42,445 bases of DNA. Origin: an uncultured bacterium. Its GTDB lineage: Bacteria > Armatimonadota > HRBIN16. This document shows positions 18,229 through 33,978 of the stretch, piece after piece. The first letter of the stretch is position 1. Each line of letters begins with the position of its first letter. The position numbers and the translations under genes are program-made. The stretch covers positions 1-42,445 of the forward strand of contig CAKZNX010000069.1 in NCBI GenBank assembly GCA_937132045.1, given 5' to 3'. The notes under the pieces were generated by a model that did not search any database, was not told the DNA's origin, and saw nothing but the letters and a program-made list of their open reading frames with translations.

Positions 18229-18792
18229 TCAGGGTCTTCTAGCCCGCCCTGGTATTGGACGGGAAGAGTAGGCAGGCTGGCTCCAATCTGGGTCGTCATC
18301 GAAGAGTGACGGCGTGGTTGCTCTTCGCAGTTCGGATTCGGTCTGACAAGTCCCATCCCTCCGAATATGAACCGCATCGATACCATAGTGGTCAAATAGA
18401 TGTCTGGCTATCAGCAGACGACGGTGGCAATGCTTAGGGTCTTCTTCGGCACACATCAGGGCAACTCGTCTCTCTTGACCGAGCACGTCCAGAACTTTCT
18501 GGATACCTTGCTTGAACACGCTGGTATTGCTGAAGGCATCATAGTTAGCGTAACCGCGCTGGTCGTAAAGGTCATCCCCATCCAGTCTGCCTCCCAGAAG
18601 ATTACCCATGTAGCAGTAAATGATGCCTGTCGCACCCAGAGCCGACTCGAGGCTTGCCCTGTCAAACTGAGTATGCCAGCGCGATGTTGGAACAGACCGA
18701 ACGTCAATGAGCGTGTCCACTGTGTGCATGCGGAGCAACTCGATGAATCGCTCAATCTGGTGGTTGGAGTGCCCTATTGTAAACAGTGGCAT
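18229..18792 (-). CDS. DUF488 domain-containing protein (subtype A)
   Basis: MPLFTIGHSNHQIERFIELL...LIDVRSVPTSRWHTQF; CAEEDPKHCHRRLLIARHL (Cx5-6CHR motif). Confidence 0.92.
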   Translation of the reverse strand: MPLFTIGHSNHQIERFIELLRMHTVDTLIDVRSVPTSRWHTQFDRASLESALGATGIIYCYMGNLLGGRLDGDDLYDQRGYANYDAFSNTSVFKQGIQKVLDVLGQERRVALMCAEEDPKHCHRRLLIARHLFDHYGIDAVHIRRDGTCQTESELRRATTPSLFDDDPDWSQPAYSSRPIPGRARRP

Positions 18793-18844: not shown

Positions 18845-19561
18845 TTATGGCGCAGCATCAAGCCCTCGTTCATCTTTGCCGTTCTGGGTTAAGGCTGGTT
18901 TGCCATAGTATTGGGACACCTGAAGGTAGCATACCGGTTCGACACCCTGAGTCCTGCTCCACCAGCGGGCTAATGACAGACGAAGCAGACCGCCAGCCGG
19001 AATCACGTCAACCTCCAGCGGGGCTTCGGCAATGTAGGGTACAACAATGTTGCGGTATTCTGAACGCAGGCGGATTTTGCCTTCGGTAGTGCGCCAGACT
19101 TCCAGTTCGTGCGGTGGTATCCAGAAACAGGTGCTAAAGCTCGGAACACCTGTTCGCCGTTCAATAAATCGTGAACCGGTTTCTGAACTCACCTGCAAGA
19201 GTCCCTCAAACACGGTGTCAATGCTACCCCTATACAGGGGCACAACAGAGTTTTGTGTGATAATCTGCATCAGCCTATCGGCTATGGGTGGTGCTAGCGT
19301 GCCTGCGAGGCGCAGATGTTGAACACGGCAGTCTTCCGTGTGAGGGGGGCGTATGTTTGGGCTGGGAAGATATTCCAGCTCCAATATCTGCCCGACCTTG
19401 AAGGCAAATTCCTCGGCGTGATAAAAGGCTCCGTCCGCCTTGTGAAGGCGGAGGTTGCGTATTGGCGTGTAGCCAGTTGATGTTTGTTCCAGCTCAAGTG
19501 CCCCCACGCACTTTCGCCCTTCGCGCATCCGGGTTACTGCTACGATAGCAGCAAGACTCAT
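18845..19561 (-). CDS. Hypothetical protein, tentatively dual-OB-fold-like, translationally coupled to the upstream DUF488 gene
   Basis: MSLAAIVAVTRMREGRKCVGALEL...PIRNLRL...GQILELEYLPSPNIRPPHTED...; start ATG overlaps upstream TGA (ATGA at 19558-19561). Confidence 0.65.
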   Translation of the reverse strand: MSLAAIVAVTRMREGRKCVGALELEQTSTGYTPIRNLRLHKADGAFYHAEEFAFKVGQILELEYLPSPNIRPPHTEDCRVQHLRLAGTLAPPIADRLMQIITQNSVVPLYRGSIDTVFEGLLQVSSETGSRFIERRTGVPSFSTCFWIPPHELEVWRTTEGKIRLRSEYRNIVVPYIAEAPLEVDVIPAGGLLRLSLARWWSRTQGVEPVCYLQVSQYYGKPALTQNGKDERGLDAAP

Positions 19562-20061
19562 GGGCGCAAATGTACGACCTCCAGTGCCAGCTTCTGCGAG
19601 AGAAAGTCCGCGAGAATAGACCGGTGGCACGCCTCTGGTTCGCGCTCCACGCACAGTAACGCAACCACGCTTGCTCTCGGATGAATACTATCGAGAAACG
19701 AAGCGTCAGAGGCGCTATGCTGTATCTGCTGCGTGTAGACTTCGACGAATTCGGGAGATAGATGCGTTCTGTTTCGCTTGCGAATCTTGCCATCCTTGTC
19801 CTTTTGCTTTTGTATGAGACGAATTTCCTGGGTCGGTGCCAGTTGCTTGAGATGGATATACTCTATTCCGTTTTGATGCAAAAGGTCGCTAAGCGCCTTA
19901 GCATTGGCGAAGCGATAGGAGCTTCCGCGAACACCTCTGCGCTGCCTCACGTCCACAACCACTTCCACTTGATGCTCCCTGAGGTCCGCGACAAAACGCT
20001 CTTCAGTCCACCCGTAAACGCCTATCGTGACGATTCGCTTCAAGGACTGACAATATACCAA
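19558..20061 (-). CDS. DUF488 domain-containing protein (subtype B)
   Basis: RIVTIGVYGWTEERFVADLREHQVEVVVDVRQRRGVRGS; ALLCVEREPEACHRSILADFL; TTG start with AAAGGAGG upstream. Confidence 0.88.
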   Translation of the reverse strand: MVYCQSLKRIVTIGVYGWTEERFVADLREHQVEVVVDVRQRRGVRGSSYRFANAKALSDLLHQNGIEYIHLKQLAPTQEIRLIQKQKDKDGKIRKRNRTHLSPEFVEVYTQQIQHSASDASFLDSIHPRASVVALLCVEREPEACHRSILADFLSQKLALEVVHLRP

Positions 20062-22466: not shown

Positions 22467-23591
22467 TTAAGGTGCGGAAGACCTCTCGCCGAGCTGTACA
22501 CTCACTTTCAGTCGGTTCTTGCCGCGCACGACATCGATCTCCACGCGGTCACCCGGTTTCATCCGGCGCAGGAAGGCTGTCACATCGGCGGCGCGGCGCA
22601 CGGGCGTCCGGTTCAGCGCAACGACAACATCGCCCAGCCGGATACCGCCACGCGCTGCAGGGCTGTTCGGCACCACCCGAACGACTTCTGCACCTTCACC
22701 GTCGTGGTCTGCGGGCATGATGCCCAGAAAAGGACGTCGCAGTTTGCCTGCTCGCATATCGTCCAGCACAGCGCGCACGTCGTTGATGGGCACCGCCAGC
22801 GCACCACCTGTCGTGCCGAACATCGACATCTCCAGCGAGGTGCCGAGACTTGGTACCGCACTGCCTCGGGCGGTACTCGGCGGACTGAAAACCATTCCAG
22901 GCGCAATGCTGGCGACAATCACGCCCACCACCTCGCCACGGCTGTTGACCACCGGCGCCCCACTGCTCCCTGCGCCAATCGGAGCGCTGATCTGCAGCAG
23001 GTTGGACAGAAACTGTTGCTGTCCCAGCGCGCCGGTACGCTCGCGCCCTGAGACGATGCCCAGCACCACCGAGCGCTCGAATCCCCCCAGCGTGCCCACA
23101 CACAGCACCAGGCCGCCGGGCTCCACCCTGTCGGAGTCGCCCAGCGTCAGTGGCGGAGGGGTCGACTCGGAGCAGAGAATAAGGGCAAGGTTGGTGACGT
23201 CGTCCACACTCACCACCCGGGCTGAAGCTCGCTGTCCATTAGCGAAGCGCACGGTGCAGGTTTCCGCCCCCCGCACGATGTCGGCGCTGGTGAGTATCGA
23301 GCCGTCGCGATCGACGATGAAGCCGGTGCCTTTGCGCGAGATGGGGCTGGGCAGATTCAGCAAGCGCATCGCTTCCAGCCAGCGACGGGCGGTTTCGTTC
23401 TGCGGAGGCACCAGACCGGTTGACGGTATCGAGCCGGGCGATACCAGCGCTCCTCCCTCCACTGCCACCACGCCCGTCTGCACCTTGCGGGTTAGCGCTG
23501 TAATCTCCCGTTCCAGCGATTCCAGCAGGCTCTGTGCGCTGGCTGGCAGAACAATCAGCAGAAGGCACACGAGCGTTGCTATGATACGCAT
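22467..23591 (-). CDS. HtrA/S1C-like trypsin-fold protein with PDZ domain; catalytic His and Asp apparently substituted
   Basis: Signal peptide MRIIATLVCLLLIVLPASA; GTGFIVDRDGSILTSADIVRGAETCTVRFANGQRASARVVSVDDVTNLALI; GAGSSGAPVVNSRGEVVGV; C-terminal PDZ VVRVVPNSPAARGGIRLGDVVVALNRTPV. Confidence 0.9.
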   Translation of the reverse strand: MRIIATLVCLLLIVLPASAQSLLESLEREITALTRKVQTGVVAVEGGALVSPGSIPSTGLVPPQNETARRWLEAMRLLNLPSPISRKGTGFIVDRDGSILTSADIVRGAETCTVRFANGQRASARVVSVDDVTNLALILCSESTPPPLTLGDSDRVEPGGLVLCVGTLGGFERSVVLGIVSGRERTGALGQQQFLSNLLQISAPIGAGSSGAPVVNSRGEVVGVIVASIAPGMVFSPPSTARGSAVPSLGTSLEMSMFGTTGGALAVPINDVRAVLDDMRAGKLRRPFLGIMPADHDGEGAEVVRVVPNSPAARGGIRLGDVVVALNRTPVRRAADVTAFLRRMKPGDRVEIDVVRGKNRLKVSVQLGERSSAP

Positions 23592-23604
23592 CGGGTATCG
23601 CCTC

Positions 23605-24345
23605 CTATTCCACGGCACCTGCTGTGGCTGGATAAGCAGCCTGCATGACGTAGGTTTCGGGTACCGGAGTGGATGCTACCGGATGCGCCTCGGACACCAC
23701 CGGCTGAACCGGCACCAGCGGCTCCGACGAAGCGGTTCCCACAGCCTCTTCGTGAGACGTCCCAACAGGCTGAGGCGTCGGTTGGGCTGCCACCACAATG
23801 CGCCTTGGTGGTTGATGTGCGGGCGCTGGCGTCCGCTGAGGCGCCTTCTCGGGTCTGGCTTGCGCCGGTGGAGCGGGTTTATCGAGCTGAGAGGGCTTCG
23901 CTTTGACGTCCTCGCTGGCAGGGGCGGCCGGCTTCCTGATTTGCGAAGGCGCAACGGGTTGTGTCTCTCGCTGGGCAAGCTGGGGAGCCGTCTGCAGAGG
24001 TTTGCCGACGTGGTCAACAGGCGCGGTGCCTCGCAACCACAGCGACAAGCCGATGACCACCGCCACAACCCCTGTCATCGAGGCGAGAGCGACCTGAAGT
24101 GGAAAAGTGCGCTGTTTGACCGCCGTGCTCACCTGCAGAGGTTGCCATCCCGCGGGTGGCGAGCTCGGCAGAAGGCGCGCGTACTGCCGCAGTGCCTGAT
24201 GCGTTCGGCGGTAGTGCAGAGCCTGCACCTGGCAGCGCGAGCAGGTCTTGAGGTGGCGTCGCACCCAATTGGGCAGACTGCCCTCTATGTCATCCTCGCA
24301 CAGCGCGAGGAAGTATTCGGCGAGTCGGCACATGAGCCGCTTCAT
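23605..24345 (-). CDS. Membrane-anchored zinc-finger anti-sigma factor with Pro/Ala-rich extracytoplasmic region
   Basis: HLKTCSRC (Hx3Cx2C) motif, single TM segment VALASMTGVVAVVIGLSLWL, ATGA overlap with the sigma factor gene. Confidence 0.82.
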   Translation of the reverse strand: MKRLMCRLAEYFLALCEDDIEGSLPNWVRRHLKTCSRCQVQALHYRRTHQALRQYARLLPSSPPAGWQPLQVSTAVKQRTFPLQVALASMTGVVAVVIGLSLWLRGTAPVDHVGKPLQTAPQLAQRETQPVAPSQIRKPAAPASEDVKAKPSQLDKPAPPAQARPEKAPQRTPAPAHQPPRRIVVAAQPTPQPVGTSHEEAVGTASSEPLVPVQPVVSEAHPVASTPVPETYVMQAAYPATAGAVE

Positions 24346-24944
24346 GGTGATCCCCCCAAAAGCACTTCCAGACGTTGTTTAAGCAATCGGCGGGCGCGGA
24401 ACAGACGCAGCTTCACGCTTCCGACACTGCATCCCAGCGCCTTTGCCATTTCCGCATAGTCCATCCCTTCGATATCTCGCAACACAATCACCGCACGATG
24501 GTGTGGAGGCAGGGCGTCGATGGCTTTGCGCACCGTTTCCCGCAGCTCGTTGAGTTCGGCGGCGGTGTGGGGATCGATGTCCGCGTGAGAACCGCCAACG
24601 TCCCAGTCCAGCGATACCTCAGGATGCGCGTGCTTGCGCTTCACGTGGTCTATTGCCAGGTGCACGCCGATGCGGATCAGCCAAGTGCGCAGTTGCGCCT
24701 CTCCGCGGAAGCTGTCCAGCGCACGGTATGCACGCAGAAACGCCTCCTGAGTGAGGTCTTCAGCATCCTGGGTATTGCCCACCACGCCGAGTATACTGCG
24801 AAACACCGCAGAGCGATGCTGCTCCCACAGTGTGCCGAAAGCCTCCATATCGCCCGATCGGCAGCGTTCAATCAGCTGTCGCTCGCTGTCCTGTCGGGGG
24901 TGCTCTCCAGTTGCCACACGCCACTCCCAAACTTGCGCATCCAT
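24342..24944 (-). CDS. ECF RNA polymerase sigma factor
   Basis: NTQDAEDLTQEAFLRAYRALDSFRGEAQLRTWLIRIGVHLAIDHVKR (region 2) and LPPHHRAVIVLRDIEGMDYAEMAKALGCSVGSVKLRLFRARRLLKQRL (region 4). Confidence 0.95.
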   Translation of the reverse strand: MDAQVWEWRVATGEHPRQDSERQLIERCRSGDMEAFGTLWEQHRSAVFRSILGVVGNTQDAEDLTQEAFLRAYRALDSFRGEAQLRTWLIRIGVHLAIDHVKRKHAHPEVSLDWDVGGSHADIDPHTAAELNELRETVRKAIDALPPHHRAVIVLRDIEGMDYAEMAKALGCSVGSVKLRLFRARRLLKQRLEVLLGGSP

Positions 24945-25124
24945 CGCGTCGCTCCTTCATCGATTCGGTGCGAGCACCTTAGGCTCCCCCTCGCGCCAAC
25001 CCACACTGCGGAGAGACAGCTGGTGCCCGCACCGTCGTCTGCTCTTGCTGGCGGGCGTGTATCCCTCCGCAAGTCCTCCGAACCACACCAACATAATAGA
25101 CGATGCCTGTCCTTATCTGTTATC

Positions 25125-25985
25125 ATGGTGTATATGAGCCAGATCATCACCCTGCTAACCGACTTCGGCACAGAAGACACCTACGTGGGTGTGATGAAGG
25201 GTGTTATCGCCTCCATCTGCCCTTCGGCTCTGGTGGTTGACCTCACGCATGAAGTGCCCCCGCAGGACGTTGCTACAGGAGCGTTTCTGCTGGACGTTTC
25301 GGTGGACTACTTCCCTCAGGACACGGTGCATGTGGCGGTGGTCGATCCCGGCGTGGGCACCGCGCGCAAACCCGTAGCCATCCGGACGGAACAGGCGTAT
25401 TACGTTGGTCCGGATAACGGCATTTTCACGCTGGTGCTGCAGCGCCACCGGATGCGCAGGGCGGTGTGTCTGGATAATCCACAGTATCACCTGCCTGAAA
25501 AGAGCACGACGTTTCACGGCAGGGACGTATTCGCTCCGGTGGCGGCGCATCTTGCCTGCGGGGTGCCCTTCGAGCAGCTTGGTACGCCTGTTTCCAGTCT
25601 CCAGCGTCTGCCACTGCCGCGCGTGCGGGTAGACTGGCATGGCATTCGCGCCACTGTGGTGCATATCGACCGCTTCGGCAACGCCATCACCAACCTGACA
25701 CGCTCGGATTACGAGGCGTGGTGCCGCCGCTGGGACGTGAAAGAGAATCTGGCTCGGGTGGAGTGCGCAGGCGTTCGGCTATCTATATGCCAGACGTATG
25801 GCGAGGTGCCCGACGGACAACCGCTGGCGCTGTTCGGCAGCAGTAAAAGGCTGGAAGTGGCGGTGAACAGGGGCAATGCAGCGCAGGTATTCCGGTTGAA
25901 ACGCGGCGACACTATCAGGGTACTGCGTCAGGAAACCGCCCCACCGCCGCGCCCGCAGAGGTCGCTGAATCTGGGTTTGAAGTGA
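25125..25985 (+). CDS. SAM hydroxide adenosyltransferase (DUF62 family)
   Basis: MVYMSQIITLLTDFGTEDTYVGVMKGVI; VVDPGVGTARKPVAI; YYVGPDNGIFT; TFHGRDVFAPVAAHLACG; HIDRFGNAITNL. The ORF track extension to 24375 is read-through antisense to the sigma factor gene. Confidence 0.93.
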   Translation: MVYMSQIITLLTDFGTEDTYVGVMKGVIASICPSALVVDLTHEVPPQDVATGAFLLDVSVDYFPQDTVHVAVVDPGVGTARKPVAIRTEQAYYVGPDNGIFTLVLQRHRMRRAVCLDNPQYHLPEKSTTFHGRDVFAPVAAHLACGVPFEQLGTPVSSLQRLPLPRVRVDWHGIRATVVHIDRFGNAITNLTRSDYEAWCRRWDVKENLARVECAGVRLSICQTYGEVPDGQPLALFGSSKRLEVAVNRGNAAQVFRLKRGDTIRVLRQETAPPPRPQRSLNLGLK

Positions 25986-31692: not shown

Positions 31693-33978
31693 GTGGGGAC
31701 GTTGAGCACGAGCGGTATCAACTTCTCTGGTCTCATCTCCGGCATGGACACCGAGGGGCTGATCCAGCAGATCATCAAGGTGGAGAGCCGGCGCAAGACC
31801 ATCTGGGCGACACAGCAGTCGCAGCTCACCCAGCGGCTTTCTGGACTGCAGGCGCTTCAGGCGCAGTTGCTGGGGTTTCAGTCCGCCATTTCTCAGGTAA
31901 CCATTCAGTCTGCGTTCAAAGCGGTCAGCGCTACCAGCAGTGCCGAGAGCGTGGCTCGCGTGAGCGTCTCCACCGATGCGGTACCAGGAACCTACCTGCT
32001 GGAGGTGTCGCAGCTCGCCACCAACCACAAGATTGCCACCACCGCCCGCACCTCCGCCGATGACGCACTGGGGTTAGACGGTTCGTTTATCGTCAACGGC
32101 AAGCAGGTGACCGTCGTTGCCAGCGACAACCTGCGCGACATCGCCGCCCGTATCAACAACGCCAAGGCAGGCGTCACCGCGTCGGTGCTGAGCGCGAGCA
32201 GTGGTGAGCATTATCTCGTGCTGACGGCGCACAACACCGGTAAAGCGAACGCCATCAGCCTGAACGACCTGGGCTCCGGCAATGTTTTGCAGTCGCTGGG
32301 GCTGGTCAATACCACCACCACACTGAAGAACCCCATCACCAACGGCGCGCAGTCCGACAAATTCGCCGATACCAGCACCGCTATCGGCACGCTGATGACG
32401 CTGAGCAACGCGCCATCAGGTACGATACGGATCAACGGCGTGGATGTCGCTATCGACCTCGCAACCGACTCGCTGAACGCGATTGCCAGCAAGATCAACG
32501 ACGCTGGCGCCGGGGTCACCGCCTCAGTTGTCACAGTGAACGACAATGGCACCACCAGGTACCGACTGAGCATTACCGGTAGCAGTACACCTGCCTTCAC
32601 CGACGACCAGCACATTCTCGAGACACTGGGCATCCTGAAATCAGGCTACGGTAATGAGCTGGTGCAGGCAAAGGACGCACAGTTCAAGATTGACAACATG
32701 AGCCTCACCAGCAGCACCAACGTGTTGACCAACATCGTGCAGGGCGTTGCCATCACCCTGACGGACGCAGACGCTACCAGCCCCAAAAAGACTACCATCA
32801 CCATCACGCGCGATACCGGTAGCATTAAGAGCGCTATTGAGGGATTTGTGAAGGCGTACAACGACACCGTCGACCTGATCAAGAAGTACGACTACTTTGA
32901 CAAGGAAACCTACGACACCGGACCGCTGTTCGGCAACCCCACTGTCAACGCGCTAAAGTCGGAGCTGATGGGACTGCTGTCTGACACCGTCGCAGGTACC
33001 CCGTCAGATATGAGCATGCTGGCACAGGTGGGTATCACACTGGACCCATCACGCTCGGGCAAGCTGCTGCTGAAGAGCACCGAGCTGGAAGAGGCTCTGA
33101 ACAATCGGCTGGCGGACGTGGAGAGGATTTTCCGGGTGGTGGGTTCCACCAGCGACCCGCGCCTGACATACGTCATCGCGACCAGCAAGACGAAAGCCAC
33201 CGGCGTGCCGTTGACGGTGGAAATCACACAGGTGGCAACGCAAGCACGGGCGGTGGCAACAGTTGCGCAGACGCAAGCAAGCGCCACGGCAGAGCGCCTG
33301 ACCTTCAGCGGTGGAATATTCGGGAGCAATGAGTACAGCATCACCCTGAACGCAGGCAACACCATCGACGACACCATCGCTCAGATAAACTCGGATGCCA
33401 ATCTGGCGCGATACCTTGTGGCGTCCAAAGACGAGAACGGGCACCTGGTGTTGACCTCCAGGCAGTACGGCTCTCGCGCAGCGTTCAACGTGGTGAGCAA
33501 CCAGGAAGCTGCCGGTAACAACAGCGGTATCGGCACTACGCGCCTGGAAGTGCAGGGGCAGACCGTGGCTGGCACCATCAATGGCGAGCCAGCGACAGGC
33601 GATGGACAGTTCCTTACTGGCAACGCTGGAAACGCCACTACGGACGGCTTGCAGGTGCGAGTGACTGCCACCACGACAGGCATCATCGGCACCGTGACGG
33701 TCACACGGGGCATAGCAGACCAGGTGTTCCAGATGATCCAGCGGTTTACCGACTCGATTAACGGAGCACTGACGGATGAGACGAAGACCATCCAGCAGCA
33801 AATCGACGAGATCAAGGGGCGCATATCGGCGTTTGATGAAGCGATGCAGCGCAGGGCGGAGTTCTTGCGGGCGCAGTTCACCCGCATGGAGTCTGCTCTG
33901 AACAAGATGCGGAACGAATCGATGCGTTTAGCCGCCGTTTTGGGACAGGGCAATCTGTTCAGTAATCTGGGTGCTTAG
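31693..33978 (+). CDS. fliD: Flagellar hook-associated protein 2 / filament cap FliD
   Basis: INFSGLISGMDTEGLIQQIIKVESRRKTIWATQQSQLTQRLSGLQALQAQLLGFQSAI; Flagellin_IN-like repeats; C-terminal coiled coil. GTG start. Confidence 0.93.
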   Translation: MGTLSTSGINFSGLISGMDTEGLIQQIIKVESRRKTIWATQQSQLTQRLSGLQALQAQLLGFQSAISQVTIQSAFKAVSATSSAESVARVSVSTDAVPGTYLLEVSQLATNHKIATTARTSADDALGLDGSFIVNGKQVTVVASDNLRDIAARINNAKAGVTASVLSASSGEHYLVLTAHNTGKANAISLNDLGSGNVLQSLGLVNTTTTLKNPITNGAQSDKFADTSTAIGTLMTLSNAPSGTIRINGVDVAIDLATDSLNAIASKINDAGAGVTASVVTVNDNGTTRYRLSITGSSTPAFTDDQHILETLGILKSGYGNELVQAKDAQFKIDNMSLTSSTNVLTNIVQGVAITLTDADATSPKKTTITITRDTGSIKSAIEGFVKAYNDTVDLIKKYDYFDKETYDTGPLFGNPTVNALKSELMGLLSDTVAGTPSDMSMLAQVGITLDPSRSGKLLLKSTELEEALNNRLADVERIFRVVGSTSDPRLTYVIATSKTKATGVPLTVEITQVATQARAVATVAQTQASATAERLTFSGGIFGSNEYSITLNAGNTIDDTIAQINSDANLARYLVASKDENGHLVLTSRQYGSRAAFNVVSNQEAAGNNSGIGTTRLEVQGQTVAGTINGEPATGDGQFLTGNAGNATTDGLQVRVTATTTGIIGTVTVTRGIADQVFQMIQRFTDSINGALTDETKTIQQQIDEIKGRISAFDEAMQRRAEFLRAQFTRMESALNKMRNESMRLAAVLGQGNLFSNLGA

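Follow-up and report, generated by a model that had tools for sequence, protein, structure and literature searches.

An ECF sigma, anti-sigma, and HtrA operon conserved in Armatimonadota encodes an HtrA-like protein without the catalytic histidine

The window, by which we mean the whole 42,445-nucleotide stretch of DNA analyzed here, comes from a 3.5-Mb Armatimonadota genome whose named relatives include HRbin16, SKYG40, SKYG83, Armatimonadetes isolate RSWS16, and Chthonomonadia isolate Ch118. Three neighboring genes on the reverse strand encode an ECF sigma factor of 200 aa (24342..24944), an anti-sigma factor of 246 aa (23605..24345), and an HtrA-like protein of 374 aa that lacks the catalytic His and Asp (22467..23591). 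The sigma and anti-sigma genes share an ATGA overlap, and the HtrA-like gene begins 13 bases beyond the anti-sigma gene. Its start was placed at the ATG at 23591, which is preceded by AGGAGG; the GTG at 23618, an alternative from the open reading frame list, is less likely. Elsewhere in the window, we observed two DUF488 genes near each other (18229-18792 and 19558-20061, reverse strand) and a gene for the FliD flagellar cap (31693-33978, forward strand; Pfam FliD_N and FliD_C).

The sigma factor contains regions 2 and 4 only (Pfam Sigma70_r2, E 7e-18; Sigma70_r4_2, E 1.6e-17) and scores 103 bits against a cut-off of 42.9 for the NCBIfam profile TIGR02937, matching the ECF type. The anti-sigma factor comprises an N-terminal zinc-type domain, one transmembrane helix, and a long, Pro/Ala-rich outer tail. 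Its residues 31-38 read HLKTCSRC (24232..24255, reverse strand), the HxxxCxxC zinc-binding motif of ZAS anti-sigma factors, and the helix, predicted by sequence inspection at about residues 84-105 (24031..24096, reverse strand), is conserved in position. HLKTCSRC occurs at residue 31 in all 10 genomes of the genus, and HxxxCxxC is found at the same place in nearly all of the other families described below. The Pfam domain zf-HC2 matched with an E value of 0.034, which lies under the gathering score. Motif, adjoining sigma gene, and membrane helix together identify the protein as a ZAS anti-sigma factor with predicted zinc binding. In one anti-sigma factor from an operon of the same type (L140, genome G077, 1750-2700), no HxxxCxxC was seen; this protein keeps the membrane helix and the tail motif.

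The HtrA-like protein begins with a signal sequence, MRIIATLVCLLLIVLPASA (23535..23591, reverse strand), recognized by inspection and conserved in type among orthologues. A trypsin-like domain follows (Trypsin_2, PF13365; residues 88-224, E 2.6e-25; 22920..23330, reverse strand) and then a PDZ domain with an FLGI carboxylate-binding loop (PDZ_2; residues 287-367, E 1.1e-14; 22491..22733, reverse strand). Single-sequence structure prediction gave a pLDDT of 42, and we took instead an alignment-based AlphaFold model (mean pLDDT 84, pTM 0.77), which Foldseek matched to DegP, Deg1, MucD, and DegS. Pfam, model, and Foldseek thus agree on the HtrA fold of a trypsin-like domain plus PDZ, and the signal sequence and PDZ domain reported in the first-pass annotation are both present. 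A viral fold search added nothing. The protein falls under the cut-off of every NCBIfam HtrA family, the best being TIGR02037 (172.5 bits against 416), and scores 36.3 bits against a cut-off of 800 for the MamO equivalog.

Alignment with solved HtrA structures placed LTSADIV over LTNNHVV, TNLAL over SDVAV, and GSSGAP over the GNxGG nucleophile loop. The catalytic His site is therefore occupied by Asp104 (GAC, 23280..23282), the catalytic Asp site by Asn134 (AAC, 23190..23192), and the nucleophile site by Ser210 (AGT, 22962..22964) within G208-S-S-G-A, all on the reverse strand. These are exactly the codons named in the first-pass annotation, and the loss of His and Asp that it read by eye holds in structure-guided alignments and in all 10 orthologues of the genus, every one of which reads Asp-Asn-Ser. 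A displaced active-site His could be rejected as an alternative: in each of the nine complete genus orthologues, the protease domain is free of His, and six of these nine proteins contain none anywhere.

We then considered whether the altered site could be an artifact. The only point for a decaying pseudogene or an assembly error is the loss of two catalytic residues itself. The sigma, anti-sigma, and HtrA genes occur in the same order in all 10 genomes of the genus, and relative to the window, the products in the nine others are 88-92% (sigma), about 44-52% (anti-sigma), and 59-76% (HtrA) identical. Across the nine complete genes, the three altered-site codons vary synonymously only (GAC/GAT, AAC/AAT, and AGT/AGC), and dN/dS for the HtrA-like gene is 0.05-0.18 within the genus. 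The altered residues are kept by purifying selection. Agreement among ten independent assemblies, together with the synonymous codons and low dN/dS, rules out chance, sequencing error, and pseudogene decay, and the deep clade over four families described next leaves decay or misassembly a negligible probability.

To place these proteins more broadly, we surveyed 292 Armatimonadota genomes, probably mostly metagenome-assembled, with a seed profile built from the His-less proteins, so that recovery, though not the tree, is biased toward His-less proteins. To the window's genus and family f7, the survey added families f31 and f38 as carriers of the operon with a His-less HtrA, so that three families are known besides that of the window. 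Family f7 contributed 19 HtrA proteins (8 Glu-Asn-Ser, 10 Asp-Asn-Ser, and 1 Ser-Asn-Asn at the three sites) within the same operon, and its carriers include a 3.44-Mb single-contig genome. Seven more came from family f31, six reading Asp/Glu-Gly-Pro and one Glu-Gly-Ser, and family f38 is represented by a single genome (G234) with Asn-Asp-Ser. Both a sigma gene and a gene for a long-tailed zinc anti-sigma factor are present at the f31 and f38 loci. Overall, an ECF sigma gene adjoins 34 of the 37 His-less HtrA genes, and the remaining three start about 750 bases or less from the edge of their contig. The linkage proposed in the first-pass annotation is thus conserved well beyond the window, and orthologues with an intact triad, which would have spoken against its reading, occupy none of the 37 loci.

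We also calculated a maximum-likelihood tree for 80 HtrA proteins with the triad columns left out. A single branch, supported at 100/100 and recovered in 100% of bootstrap trees, separates the 36 His-less proteins from all others. The sigma proteins of the His-less operons also cluster (94/88), in an analysis with few controls and in which some long branches meet. These data show that the catalytic residues have been lost in a whole HtrA lineage under selection, and that His-less HtrA proteins in sigma/anti-sigma operons are real and conserved. The carriers are hot-spring and soil bacteria, apparently including the cultured relative Chthonomonas calidirosea. A separate HtrA homologue from genome G059 (L015/L097) reads Ser-Asp-Ser, with Ser at the His site; it lies outside the His-less clade and is apparently an independent loss of His.

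The altered site is itself strongly ordered. In an alignment of 27 His-less proteins from the genus and f7, Asn134, Gly208, Ser210, and Gly211 are invariant, position 104 is only ever Asp or Glu, and G290 of the PDZ carboxylate loop is likewise invariant. Such a pattern at the former active site amounts to more than decay. The first-pass annotation described the triad as broken, which is right for His and Asp but perhaps too strong for the genus and f7, where a carboxylate-Asn-Ser arrangement and the oxyanion Gly208 are kept. One explanation is that the protein is an altered but active enzyme, in which Asp/Glu104, hydrogen-bonded by Asn134, would serve as general base for Ser210 beside an intact oxyanion hole, tuned to acid. 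The conserved residues would fit, as would the codons, which in the genus change only synonymously at all three positions. There is a parallel in the sedolisins (S53; PMC11593635), serine-carboxyl peptidases with a Ser-Glu-Asp site in which a carboxylate replaces the catalytic His; these have a subtilisin fold unrelated to the HtrA-like protein, and the analogy is functional only, catalysis here being putative. C. calidirosea is also described as a moderate acidophile (PMC4959169). However, the side chain of Asp, being shorter than that of His, might fall short of Ser, the f38 protein reads Asn-Asp-Ser, and His-bearing HtrA paralogues are kept in the same cells. Family f31 weighs further against the idea, since it retains the operon with Gly at 134 and, in six of seven proteins, Pro at 210. 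As the operon and the anti-sigma tail stay where Ser is lost, the shared function should not need a nucleophile or catalysis, which argues against a serine-carboxyl-like enzyme as the general function. We therefore regard an altered active enzyme as decidedly unlikely, and its more specific form, an acid-active serine-carboxyl HtrA with Asp/Glu for His and an invariant Asn that cuts the anti-sigma factor of its own operon, as improbable. The HtrA-like protein is thus probably without enzyme activity.

Conventional HtrA proteins are found alongside the His-less type. The three other HtrA proteins of the window's genome are all His-Asp-Ser, and one of them belongs to a second operon (L051, contig C211, 5293-8018, reverse strand) that encodes an ECF sigma factor, a short zinc anti-sigma factor of 174-175 aa, and an intact-triad HtrA of roughly 510 aa. 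A second sigma/HtrA locus with His-Asp-Ser is present in all ten genus genomes; the genus therefore keeps intact and His-less versions side by side. The two operon types differ in their partners, with anti-sigma factors of 242-296 aa accompanying His-less HtrA and anti-sigma factors of 174-198 aa accompanying His-Asp-Ser HtrA. The anti-sigma factor of the second locus also has a conserved end, ..VSVRYYR. About three M50 site-2 proteases are encoded in the window's genome.

These paralogues raise the possibility that the His-less protein is a non-catalytic subunit, forming mixed oligomers with a His-Asp-Ser paralogue and either activating it or directing it to the anti-sigma factor. Candidate partners exist in the three paralogues, particularly the one whose sigma/anti-sigma operon is kept in ten genus genomes, and there is precedent in MamE, whose processing needs the presence of MamO but not the MamO triad (PMC4794232). 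The sequence gives no sign of mixed oligomers, however, and the active paralogues of the genus lie on other contigs or far off. The two operon types come close together only in an f31 genome, where both are found near each other on one contig (L190, 1-5500). On balance, a subunit role seems unlikely, although among the readings considered it ranks second, after the docking role proposed below.

We next examined the outer tail of the anti-sigma factor. Its C-terminal 38 residues (..VPETYVMQAAYPATAGAVE; 23608..23721, reverse strand) stand out in pairwise comparisons within the genus, with a mean identity of 0.66, close to that of the cytoplasmic domain (0.69), against 0.35 for the linker. Tails in other families keep an aromatic-hydrophobic strand (YVMSAL, YIMGTL, YLPVRY, and similar), a motif that they have in common with the genus tail. 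The last residue differs between the groups. It is Glu in 10 of 10 genus proteins, whereas among the 23 tails read outside the genus it is Y in 8, W in 8, F in 5, and L in 2; in five control anti-sigma factors, whose partner HtrA has an intact triad, it is R or D. Glu at the C terminus is not a usual HtrA-PDZ ligand, an aromatic residue being the usual one. Because the genus tails end in Glu, capture of the terminus by the PDZ domain is conjectural and not secure there. The tail ends of the other families, judged by their sequence, resemble PDZ ligands: the DegS PDZ takes hydrophobic C-terminal ligands (PMC8103513), and the PDZ of AlgW is described as taking C-terminal ligands of the same kind (PMC8545111). 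The binding of the tail by the PDZ domain suggested in the first-pass annotation is accordingly favored by the conserved tail end and by the aromatic termini elsewhere, and disfavored by the Glu terminus throughout its own genus.

The tail also bears on whether the HtrA-like protein could be an effector, produced upon sigma activation to serve as a holdase-type chaperone in the envelope and having no contact with the anti-sigma factor. HtrA proteins such as DegP do have chaperone activity, and the HtrA gene comes last in the operon, which has a conserved promoter of its own. An effector role leaves unexplained, however, why the His-less type is paired with a long and C-terminally conserved tail, and we consider it unlikely.

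The promoter is of ECF type, TGATAAC-N16-CGTCTA, and lies ahead of the sigma gene (25097..25125, reverse strand), where it is invariant in 10 of 10 genus genomes. Exact copies elsewhere are very few per genus genome; with this strict pattern, a wide regulon was not supported, the operon itself being the only target to recur in all ten genomes. Many f7 sigma genes are likewise preceded by this element with its 16-nt spacing, an indication that the ECF sigma factor regulates its own operon. We also note that 25097-25125, read on the strand opposite to the ECF-type promoter, resembles an extended -10 sigma-70 promoter directed toward the divergent gene for SAM hydroxide adenosyltransferase; the site may thus hold two overlapping promoters. 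The divergent gene is unlikely to be the sole reason for the conservation because the element recurs with its 16-nt spacer ahead of many f7 sigma genes; in the genus, the element may nevertheless also serve the divergent gene.

Taken together, these observations suggest that the HtrA-like protein now serves the anti-sigma factor as a partner for docking or sensing, and not as an ordinary protease. We propose an autoregulated operon of an ECF sigma factor, a membrane zinc anti-sigma factor, and an HtrA pseudoprotease that docks or guards the anti-sigma tail, and we put the chances of this reading at about even. The HtrA-like protein, presumably exported and oligomeric, would hold the conserved C-terminal tail in its PDZ domain and/or its emptied substrate cleft, and the docked tail would be either shielded from true proteases or presented to them. 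Misfolded envelope proteins or another ligand would compete for the same sites, after which site-1 and then site-2 (M50) proteolysis by other proteases would destroy the anti-sigma factor. The freed sigma factor would then switch on the operon via its own TGATAAC-N16-CGTCTA promoter. Docking is favored by the linkage, the single clade, the pairing of long tails with His-less HtrA, and the conserved tail end, all seen at the sequence level. It is also consistent with the intact Gly290, Gly208, and fold, with the operon's own promoter (in the genus and most of f7), and with the presence of M50 and active HtrA paralogues. Against an emptied cleft stands the strictness of Asp/Glu104 and Asn134 in the 27 proteins, which is more order than such a cleft would need.

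HtrA control of sigma factors is usually explained in terms of protease cascades, and DegS, AlgW, and MucD are active proteases in the algU and rpoE stress modules. The HtrA-like protein shares with the S1C proteins HtrA, DegP, DegS, and MucD a signal sequence, a trypsin-like domain plus PDZ, and the fold, but has the catalytic His and Asp replaced. The operon likewise resembles algU-mucABCD and rpoE-rseABC/DegS in combining an ECF sigma factor, a membrane anti-sigma factor, and an HtrA-type PDZ protein (PMC8103513), whereas the window's operon has no RseB/MucB gene. One protein here would combine the roles played in the sigma-E system by RseB, as guard, and the DegS PDZ, as sensor. The role in envelope stress put forward in the first-pass annotation would be assigned to the operon by analogy with such modules; the stress roles of fold relatives do not show a stress role for the HtrA-like protein. 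The gene order is also that of sigE-rseA-htrA in Mycobacterium tuberculosis, where HtrA is an essential serine protease and sigE and rseA are not cotranscribed (PMC10027907).

A search of the open-access literature for HtrA pseudoproteases tied to anti-sigma factors yielded MamO-type precedents only. MamO of magnetotactic bacteria likewise goes back to an HtrA duplicate that persisted after its catalysis was lost. Its His and Asp are in place, but Thr stands where Ser would be and the oxyanion hole is blocked; in addition, it binds metal and includes a TauE domain (PMC4794232). The proteins described here have instead lost His and in most cases Asp, mostly retain Ser and the oxyanion Gly, and are encoded beside a sigma factor and an anti-sigma factor. 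If docking is the function, this lineage, kept across four families, would show an anti-sigma factor being controlled by nothing more than a PDZ/cleft scaffold; if instead the altered site is catalytic, it would show that a trypsin fold can work without His.

Finally, the 5' leader of the sigma gene contains a predicted 69-nt hairpin (24966..25034, reverse strand; z-score -2.9). An Rfam search with the hairpin gave no family above chance, and it was not found in the f7 and f31 loci. Within the genus it is near-invariant, occurring as a single copy per genome and remaining almost letter-identical in ten species while its flanks diverge.
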